Assembly: GCF_018449635.1 (NCBI RefSeq)
Contig: NZ_JAAVUV010000006.1
Location: forward strand, 124,001-188,000
Length of the DNA: 64,000 bases
DNA from: Caballeronia sp. dw_276
Lineage (GTDB): Bacteria; Pseudomonadota; Gammaproteobacteria; Burkholderiales; Burkholderiaceae
Direction: 5' to 3'
Part shown: piece after piece, positions 53,907 to 55,595 of the stretch
Layout of the letters: every line of letters starts with the position of its first letter
Position numbering within the stretch: position 1 is the first letter of the stretch
Made by a program: the position numbers and the translations under genes
Notes under the pieces: generated by a model
Databases searched by the model: none
What the model was told of the DNA's origin: nothing
Seen by the model: the letters and a program-made list of their open reading frames with translations, nothing else

Positions 53907-54395
53907 ATGAGAACTCAGCGAAATTCGGTGCGGGAGCTGGACAAGATCGATCGCCGGATTCTCCGGATCCTTCAACAGGATGGCCGTATCGCCATGAAGG
54001 AGCTTGCGGAGCAGGTCGGGCTGTCGGTGACGCCGTGCATCGAGCGCGTCAAGCGCATGGAGCGCGACGAAGTGATTTCCGGCTACTACGCGCGCGTGAA
54101 CCCGCATCAGCTCGGTGCTTCGTTATTGGTGTTCGTCGAAATCACGCTCGATCACAAGAGCGGCAACATGTTCGAACAGTTTCGACGCGAAGTGCAGCGC
54201 ATTCCCGAGGTTCTGGAATGCCACCTGGTTTCCGGTGATTTCGACTATCTGATCAAGGCACGCATTGGTGAAATGGCCGATTACCGGAAACTTCTCGGCG
54301 ATATCCTGCTGCAACTTCCCGGCGCGGTGCAGTCGAAAAGCTACGTGGTCATGGAGGAGATCAAGGAGAGCCTGGCCATTGCCGTAGAGGGGTGA
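53907..54395 (+). CDS. lrp: Leucine-responsive regulator (Lrp/AsnC family)
   Basis: The 162-residue protein, about the length of E. coli Lrp (164), has VRELDKIDRRILRILQQDGRIAMKELAEQVGLSVTPCIERVKRMERDEVISGYYARVNPHQLG, the Lrp winged-helix N-terminus with its recognition helix, then a RAM ligand domain (LECHLVSGDFDYLIKARI). Its divergent location next to dadA matches Lrp control of alanine catabolism. The start at 53907 fits the family. A codon 12 residues earlier is not favoured. Confidence 0.93.
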   Translation: MRTQRNSVRELDKIDRRILRILQQDGRIAMKELAEQVGLSVTPCIERVKRMERDEVISGYYARVNPHQLGASLLVFVEITLDHKSGNMFEQFRREVQRIPEVLECHLVSGDFDYLIKARIGEMADYRKLLGDILLQLPGAVQSKSYVVMEEIKESLAIAVEG

Positions 54396-54401
54396 ATCCG
54401 C

Positions 54402-54438
54402 TTGCGAACGGAGAGATTTACTGTATATTTGTACAGTA
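54402..54438 (+). promoter_or_regulatory. LexA (SOS) box overlapping a sigma70 promoter
   Basis: The sequence at 54419-54438 matches the E. coli LexA consensus at 18 of 20 positions, including the invariant CTGT-N8-ACAG core (54421-54436). A -35 TTGCGA (54402-54407) and a -10 TATATT (54424-54429), 16 bp apart, are overlapped by the box, so LexA binding would block transcription of the radical SAM gene that starts at 54459. Confidence 0.88.
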
Positions 54439-54458
54439 TTTTCTATCGTGCGTCGATC

Positions 54459-55595
54459 ATGGCCTTGCCTGACTCCGAATATCCCGTTGCTCCGCCCGCG
54501 CCACTCAAAGGCAGAGGCGCGGTCAAGAACATTCAGGGCCGATATGAGAAGGACGAGCGCGAACGTGTCGACGACGGCTGGACGCACACAGATCAGGATG
54601 GCGAAGAAGAAGGAGTGCCAGCGCTGCGCACCCAGGTGTTCGAGGAACACGCCAAGAGCATTCTCACGCGCAACTCGTCACCCGATATTCCGTTCGGGGT
54701 ATCGCTGAATCCTTACCGGGGGTGTGAGCACGGTTGCATCTATTGCTTCGCCCGTCCCACGCACAGTTATCTAGGTTTGTCGCCCGGACTCGATTTCGAG
54801 AGCCGCATCTATGCGAAGGTCAACGCCGGAGAGTTGCTCGAGCGCGAACTGGACAAACCGTCGTACCAGCCGGAGCCCATCGCGCTCGGGGTCAACACGG
54901 ACGCGTACCAGCCTGTCGAGCGGAACCTGCGAATCACGAGGCGCGTAACGGAAATCCTCAGCGAGCGCGGACATCCGTTTGCCGCGATCACGAAGTCATC
55001 GCTGATCGAGCGGGATATCGACTTGCTGGCGCCAATGGCGCACAAAGGTCAGGTGATGGTCGCGGTGACTATCACCACGCTCGACGCCGAAATCGCCCGG
55101 ACGCTCGAACCGCGCGCCGCGACGCCGGCCAGGCGACTGCGCACCATTCGTACCTTAGTCGACGCAGGCATTCCAGTTGGTGTCAGCGTCGCTCCCATGA
55201 TCCCGTTTGTCACCGAACCCGACATGGAGCGCGTGCTCGAAGCATGCGCAGAAGCCGGTGCCACGAGCGCGAGCTATATTGTCTTGAGGCTGCCGTGGGA
55301 AGTCGCGCCGTTGTTCAAGGATTGGCTCGCGGCGCATTTTCCCGATCGGGCCGACCGTGTGATGGGACGTGTGCGCGATATGCGCGGCGGCAAGGATTAC
55401 GACTCGGATTTTTCAAAGCGGATGAAAGGCGAGGGTCTATGGGCTGACATGCTCAAGCAGCGCTTTCATCATGCGGCGCGACGGTTTGGGCTCAACCAGC
55501 GGCATCGCGGCATTCTGGATATGTCGGCGTTTCGGCGCGAGGGGAAGGCGCCGAAGCGGTCTGCAGTGGAAAGCCCGCAGATGAAGCTGTTTTGA
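54459..55595 (+). CDS. PA0069-family radical SAM protein (spore photoproduct lyase-like)
   Basis: Started at the ATG at 54459 the protein has 378 residues. An earlier codon would overlap the LexA box. The radical SAM motif is CEHGCIYC (Cys-x3-Cys-x2-Cys) in SLNPYRGCEHGCIYCFARP, followed by LGVNTDAYQPVE, AITKSSLIERDIDLLAPMAH, VTITTLDAEIARTLEPRAATPARRL and MIPFVTEPDMERVLEACAEAGA, the pattern of the PA0069/Rv2578c group related to SplB. A DNA-repair or DNA-damage function is inferred from the SOS box. The reaction is unknown. No operon partner follows. Confidence 0.88.
   Translation: MALPDSEYPVAPPAPLKGRGAVKNIQGRYEKDERERVDDGWTHTDQDGEEEGVPALRTQVFEEHAKSILTRNSSPDIPFGVSLNPYRGCEHGCIYCFARPTHSYLGLSPGLDFESRIYAKVNAGELLERELDKPSYQPEPIALGVNTDAYQPVERNLRITRRVTEILSERGHPFAAITKSSLIERDIDLLAPMAHKGQVMVAVTITTLDAEIARTLEPRAATPARRLRTIRTLVDAGIPVGVSVAPMIPFVTEPDMERVLEACAEAGATSASYIVLRLPWEVAPLFKDWLAAHFPDRADRVMGRVRDMRGGKDYDSDFSKRMKGEGLWADMLKQRFHHAARRFGLNQRHRGILDMSAFRREGKAPKRSAVESPQMKLF

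Follow-up and report, generated by a model that had tools for sequence, protein, structure and literature searches.

At the locus described here, a gene for a radical SAM protein follows a LexA-type box and ends in a short peptide that resembles the signals by which bacterial proteins bind the sliding clamp (Table 1). The window, by which we mean the whole stretch of DNA that was analysed, spans 64 kb.

Table 1. Features of the radical SAM locus (positions in the window)
Feature	Position	Strand	Detail	Basis
Promoter-like pair TTGCGA / TATATT	54402..54429	+	spacer 16; -10 inside LexA box	promoter scan
LexA box	54419..54438	+	TACTGTATATTTGTACAGTA	consensus match and conservation in genus
PA0069-family radical SAM protein	54459..55595	+	378 aa, ATG start	NF033668 score; Pfam Radical_SAM; start by comparison
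CX3CX2C cluster-binding motif CEHGCIYC	54723..54746	+	codons 89-96	alignment
Poorly conserved linker	55464..55577	+	from catalytic core (last core residue R335) to tail peptide	alignment
QMKLF, predicted beta sliding-clamp-binding peptide	55578..55592	+	codons 374-378, extreme C-terminus	alignment and published consensus

The box lies in a 63-bp gap between the stop of an lrp/asnC-like gene (54395) and the radical SAM ATG and, since both genes run in the same direction, control of a neighbouring gene by the box was ruled out. The gene start given in the first-pass annotation (54402) needs correcting: the longest open frame begins there with a TTG, and this codon falls on the -35 hexamer. In 30/30 same-genus loci read, an in-frame ATG stands 48 bases (in one locus 60) ahead of the family match, so that translation most likely starts at ATG 54459 rather than TTG 54402.

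Of the 20 positions of the box, 18 agree with the extended LexA consensus TACTGTATATATATACAGTA. The window has no other match to the 20-bp pattern with up to three mismatches, and no such site arose in 100 shuffles. The bare core, CTGT-N8-ACAG, counts for less since 32/100 shuffles contain at least one, compared with a single match in the window. A promoter scan of 54200-54700 returned one pair only (shuffle mean 0.3), and its -10 hexamer (54424-54429) falls within the box. The annotated LexA site with its intact core and its overlap with the only good -35/-10 pair are thus both borne out. As expected for a member of the LexA (SOS) regulon, the site lies over the promoter of the PA0069-family gene and is conserved with the gene in close relatives: searching for strict CTGT-N8-ACAG up to 300 bp upstream of the family match, we found it in all 30 same-genus loci examined (the best-scoring 30 of 49 over the cut-off). 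Loss of the box from close relatives that keep the gene, which had been named as evidence against SOS control, is therefore not seen in the genus. Nine further genus loci, eight broken and one cut by a contig end, have the strict box in five cases. As a side observation, gene copies are fragmented or contain stops in nine same-genus genomes (G003, G005, G009, G015, G019, G026, G044, G045, G056), which are mostly small (2.8-5.1 Mb, one 6.2 Mb).

Might the box be a chance palindrome without function? The frequency of the bare core among shuffles could be read this way, as could the host genome, where the pattern with up to two mismatches is not enriched (50 sites against 160 for the reversed control). 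Yet the extended site appears in no shuffle, the box precedes all 21 orthologues examined in a Pseudomonas-like genus as well as those of the home genus, and across Burkholderiales the exact core is found in 39/122 loci with spacer 8 as opposed to 0 or 1/122 with spacer 5, 6, 7, 9, 10 or 11. On the shuffles and the exact spacer controls we reject a chance origin, which seems to us highly improbable.

The host genome (6.79 Mb; named near kin are Burkholderia sp. Leaf177 and Caballeronia sordidicola) holds six perfect TACTGT-N8-ACAGTA sites. Four have a target within about 20 bp downstream, namely the PA0069 gene, a second radical SAM gene (TIGR03916, see below), a umuD-like gene and a helicase-like gene whose similarity to DinG/Rad3 is weak and under curated cut-offs. 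Among six sites with one mismatch, four precede uvrA (at 120 bp), two imuA genes and a second umuD-like gene, the last assigned by its near-identical start; the other two are without a clear target. Since perfect and near-perfect sites precede such genes, TACTGT-N8-ACAGTA is the likely SOS motif of the strain; recA was not seen among the targets. Sites with two mismatches are background as a class, judged by the 50 versus 160 count above, and only perfect and one-mismatch sites carry weight; one of the two-mismatch sites (G000:C6:45816-45835) is followed after 60 bp by the match to the lexA family (G000:C6 45112-45756, minus strand). The remaining two perfect sites, L006 (G000:C55:308590-311609) and L001 (G000:C1:103818-106837), have no obvious SOS target; one is located 256 bp before a GNAT acetyltransferase-like gene, and at the other no ORF of at least 120 aa starts nearby.

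With 482.7 bits against a cut-off of 360, the product belongs to the PA0069 family (NF033668 rSAM_PA0069), in support of the annotated placement in the PA0069/Rv2578c group; it also matches Pfam Radical_SAM and scores 238.9 with the Rv2578c family (NF038135), under the cut-off of 430. The cluster cysteines C89, C93 and C96 are invariant in 39 aligned proteins and reach a conservation of 1.0 in 209. In curated score, cluster motif and C-terminal tail the product shares the traits of its family and differs in nothing essential; the name and description of NF033668 state neither a function nor a clamp peptide. A conserved operon partner was rejected because no neighbour cluster spans all 80 loci from named genomes, the largest covering 15, mainly Burkholderia kin, and including antisense ORFs. 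Searching the PDB with the protein gave chance matches, among them pentatricopeptide proteins, while its profile matched SkfB best (E 8.5e-5); a phage collection returned five weak partial matches, none covering 80%.

Spore photoproduct lyase uses a fourth cysteine outside the cluster to return a hydrogen atom, and SplB is under sporulation control. The first-pass annotation had suggested that the product may act on UV photoproducts, and one could go further and see in it a true lyase of this type, kept in non-sporulating bacteria and directly reversing thymine dimers. Product and SplB (TIGR04070; PDB 4fhc) do share radical SAM membership, CX3CX2C and a distant profile similarity (TIGR04070 E 3.7e-4; in one relative PF20903 SPL E 6e-4 and TIGR04070 E 6e-5), all of it below cut-offs, and homologues have been annotated as splB in the accessible part of one publication (PMC3323433). 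The score, however, is 19.6 bits where 400 are required, the profile comparison with the solved lyase is weak (probability 22), and no fourth conserved Cys column exists in 209 proteins, the maximum outside the three cluster cysteines being 41%, although alignment to the stretch around the catalytic cysteine of the lyase is unreliable position by position. A LexA-type site is another difference from SplB. On bit score, weak structure-profile match and missing fourth cysteine we reject a true spore photoproduct lyase, to our minds an improbable reading; the product is probably not one, and action on UV photoproducts as such a lyase finds no support. Given that the fourth cysteine is missing, another hydrogen donor or another reaction is to be expected.

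What the earlier reading of the gene missed is its C-terminus. Aligned with relatives ending in QLDLF, QLSLF, QGSLF and similar, the product terminates in QMKLF. Our tail survey reduced 347 entries to 255 distinct complete proteins (89 without a stop codon in the available sequence, one too short and two repeats were set aside), 250 of which carry a five- or six-residue clamp-type peptide at or near the C-terminus: Q-x-x-hydrophobic-aromatic/Leu/Ile occurs no more than four residues from the end in 241 (exactly terminal in 218), a six-residue form (QLGLGF, QMQLDF and others) in six, and a peptide 5-15 residues from the end in three. A recognisable tail peptide is absent from five of the 255. 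Among 415 flanking ORFs used as a control, which are mechanical open frames and in part surely non-genes, the pentapeptide is never found within four residues of the end, the six-residue rule is satisfied once, and the pentapeptide lies anywhere in the last 20 residues in nine.

The commonest tail residues across 209 proteins read Q-L-[DS]-L-F, and Met at position 2, as in QMKLF, recurs in 39/199 relatives. The commonest form equals the consensus QL[S/D]LF published for beta-clamp binding, which often occupies the extreme C-terminus, and the tolerated variants resemble published ones as well, as far as the accessible text of the sources goes (PMC3716654, PMC4549789). QMKLF at residues 374-378 fits this description of a clamp client, being terminal and of the QL[S/D]LF type. 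According to the same portions of these papers, Pol II, Pol IV, UmuC and transposases are clients with such peptides, often terminal as here; unlike the product, none of them is a radical SAM enzyme. Between the last conserved (anchor) Arg and the peptide, pentapeptide-bearing members of the 209-protein set have 27-125 residues, and within the 15 positions before the peptide the best conserved is a Pro in 98/199. A comparison of 43 distinct coding sequences, taken from the genus and its near kin, gave 1792 synonymous and 842 non-synonymous codon changes for the peptide, as opposed to 871 synonymous and 6871 non-synonymous ones for the ten preceding linker codons, a difference inflated by comparing linker codons from the end without gaps.

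Clamp binding of the peptide is a prediction, and QxxLF might instead dock to another partner or cap the fold. The peptide could be structural because the last positions of the curated NF033668 profile cover it in many members (to 348/348). On the other hand, it comes after those 27-125 poorly conserved residues, and variants such as QLxLL, QxxLW and QLGLGF look like published five- and six-residue clamp peptides, so we attach little probability to another partner or a cap and continue with the clamp as the preferred docking site.

Is the box as widespread as the tail? The box accompanies the gene in all examined loci of the home genus and in 21/21 intact genes of the Pseudomonas-like genus (protein about 69% identical to a named Pseudomonas sequence), but is missing in many Burkholderiales. 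Among 80 loci from named genomes, five of which have less than 300 bp of upstream sequence, 47 have the strict box, 12 the alphaproteobacterial GTTC-N7-GTTC and 21 neither; GTTC-N7-GTTC was found in 12/12 loci assigned to alphaproteobacteria, an assignment that was inferred for two. In the genus set and the named-genome set, other spacers and mirrored motifs matched at most once per set. A phylum-wide sample of 28 loci contains the alpha motif in 19, all of them among the 23 outside Gammaproteobacteria, and the gamma motif in three, with 0 control matches. Most alphaproteobacterial PA0069-family copies carry a LexA motif of their own. Two loci deserve mention at this point: L121, from a record titled Mycobacterium sp. 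KBS0706, has a PA0069 gene with the alphaproteobacterial LexA motif, its organism name being probably wrong, and on a Sphingomonas parapaucimobilis plasmid (L330) a PA0069 gene lies near a converging dnaE gene and has two alpha-type LexA-like sites 10 and 77 bp before it.

Sampling of 300 Burkholderiales genomes yielded 123 with the gene over the cut-off, of which 122 were read (G116 was left out owing to a contig end). The strict box is present in 37/93 genomes with lexA (TIGR00498 E under 1e-40, a threshold chosen after seeing the data) compared with 2/29 without (Fisher p 5.6e-4, uncorrected for kinship); counted by taxonomic family, 11/24 families have a lexA-bearing genome with the box versus 0/10 families without lexA (p 0.014). 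In the two genomes that break this pattern, G154 and G298, lexA matches are only weak and partial; both were kept in the count. One-mismatch boxes in Burkholderiales (14/122, spacer controls 1 to 13) barely exceed background and were not used as evidence, and 44 of the 93 lexA-bearing genomes miss the box even when one mismatch is allowed. Four lexA-bearing genomes without the usual box (G122, G141, G250, G273) show a CTGG-N8-CCAG palindrome at -44 to -161 upstream of the gene, possibly a changed LexA motif or else chance. The gammaproteobacterial class set comprised 72 genomes over the cut-off, 68 of them used (G441 and G418, partial, were left out, G000 and G106 counted with Burkholderiales), and the box is found in 7/36 genomes with canonical LexA, 0/13 with divergent LexA and 0/19 without, the classes being split at 1e-55 and 1e-35, thresholds again chosen after seeing the data. 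It is lacking in 24 of the 36 genomes with canonical LexA. Some species occur in more than one sample set. Overall, the box accompanies LexA, yet predicted SOS control is patchy across the PA0069 family and, with the box missing in 44/93 lexA-bearing Burkholderiales and 24/36 canonical-LexA Gammaproteobacteria, would be lineage-specific.

LexA control of this type of gene is not a new prediction: a 2012 paper, in the text accessible to us, already proposed LexA sites in front of splB homologues of alpha- and beta-Proteobacteria (PMC3323433), and we infer that the Burkholderia splB of that report is the PA0069-family gene described here. A 2013 study, again from its accessible part, places SplB-like genes in operons with ImuB-C genes (PMC3765255). 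The new element is the C-terminal clamp-type peptide.

The tail reaches beyond the PA0069 family. Five of five distant Rv2578c-like relatives end in a clamp-type peptide, namely Streptomyces (QLTLL), Nonomuraea (QLRLL), Tsukamurella (QESLF), Arthrobacter (QEPLF) and a Gemmatirosa relative (QLSLGI); the sister family NF038135 thus has it in 4/4 actinobacterial examples read, and the Rv2578c profile, scanned against two of the actinobacterial members, ends short of the tail in both. Three shorter radical SAM relatives outside the PA0069 and Rv2578c families are without a clamp-type tail. CGAAC-N4-GTTCT, which we take to be the Gram-positive LexA motif, occurs in the promoters of two of the four actinobacterial genes (Streptomyces, Nonomuraea), the other two having no exact match.

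A separate radical SAM family, TIGR03916 (rSAM_link_UDG), combines the same two features in the same genome. At L002 (G000:C1:464293-467312) a TIGR03916 gene lies 13 bp from a perfect LexA box and, like the PA0069 gene, encodes a clamp-like C-terminal peptide, here QLSLL. The last 20 residues of all 24 TIGR03916 proteins read (a set of 7 and one of 17, not thinned) include a clamp-type peptide of five or six residues, in 21 of them the pentapeptide; an alpha box precedes 12 and a gamma box three of the 17, and a gamma box three of the 7. TIGR03916 is presumably equivalent to COG4277. The latter is described, in the part of the source at hand, as paired with a uracil-DNA glycosylase (PMC8565304). 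From these comparisons of sequences one may envisage a class of SOS-induced radical SAM enzymes tethered to the clamp by a C-terminal peptide, made up of at least two families (PA0069/Rv2578c and TIGR03916) and performing radical chemistry on fork lesions. The tether to the clamp would form the conserved core of this class, with LexA control added in particular lineages. We consider arguments for and against such a class to be evenly balanced.

For the product itself, the reading we lean towards, and hold to be somewhat likelier true than false, is a radical SAM enzyme that is induced through LexA, is tethered to the clamp and processes lesions at forks or gaps. Judging from the box, its retention among relatives and its tendency to accompany lexA, LexA would cover the -10 region and repress the gene until DNA damage relieves repression. 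The product, a radical SAM [4Fe-4S] enzyme by family and motif, would dock with QMKLF, at the end of its variable linker, in the protein-binding pocket of DnaN (the beta sliding clamp), as the near-universal consensus match suggests. Docking of the tail would in turn have the clamp deliver the enzyme to forks that have stalled, to gaps or to newly copied DNA, where it may use a 5'-deoxyadenosyl radical for the in-situ repair or modification of a damaged base or a crosslink. Lacking a fourth cysteine, the enzyme would have to use a different hydrogen donor or do another reaction; we expect one related to that of spore photoproduct lyase but different, for example on an intrastrand or interstrand crosslink. 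That the tail matches a clamp docking signal suggests work on damaged DNA where DNA is copied.

The substrates of radical SAM enzymes are mostly small molecules, RNA or proteins, and a clamp-bound enzyme might have a protein or RNA at the replisome as its target rather than a DNA lesion. This appears unlikely to us, seeing that LexA-type sites recur in several lineages, that the same tail is found in a second SOS radical SAM family and that the product is distantly related to a DNA-repair enzyme. One case counts against a DNA-repair explanation: for a Streptomyces strain whose Rv2578c-family gene harbours a prophage, the accessible text reports no significant fitness effect and calls a link to DNA repair speculative (PMC12924846). 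We nevertheless keep to lesion processing as the preferred role of the product.

Our literature search, with most subscription journals outside its scope, found nothing joining these radical SAM families to the sliding clamp apart from one archaeal review. In its accessible sections a crosslink substrate is speculated for archaeal SplB-like proteins, whose genes adjoin in some genomes that of NreB, a paralogue of the PCNA-binding repair protein NreA (PMC4929162). As far as those sections go, both cases bring an SplB-like enzyme into a possible connection with a sliding clamp; the archaeal link runs via the neighbour NreB, whose PCNA-binding motif is less clear than that of NreA, whereas the motif here is on the enzyme itself. 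SplB-like radical SAM proteins are widespread in non-spore-forming bacteria, and the sources cited name no established substrate for them. If true, a clamp-docking tail on 250/255 sampled members would tell where the enzyme works, the set of activities carried by the sliding clamp would gain radical SAM chemistry, and two enzyme families known separately as SOS genes would become linked.

Finally, in other genomes the gene is interrupted at the CEHGCIYC codons (89-96) by an intein or integrative elements. Two Burkholderiales PA0069 proteins, L245 (G105:C9:108359-110846) and L246 (G197:C7:96959-99446), contain an in-frame insert of about 345 residues directly before the third cluster cysteine. 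It is intein-like, with a LAGLIDADG domain over the cut-off; Pfam intein-splicing scores stay below theirs, and the Rv2578c model that contains an intein can be aligned through the insert, again under its cut-off. A Streptomyces phage with a serine integrase integrates in an Rv2578c-family gene, according to the accessible part of the report (PMC12924846), and the PA0069/Rv2578c-family gene seems to be a recurrent attachment site. In the Pseudomonas-like genus the gene is split between the CEHG and CIYC codons in 4/25 genomes (G690, G700, G701, G712; L414-L424), its parts lying 12, 75 and 29 kb apart in G690, G700 and G712 and on different contigs in the fourth. Near one end of the insert there is a large serine recombinase in G690 and a pair of tyrosine-recombinase-like genes in G712.
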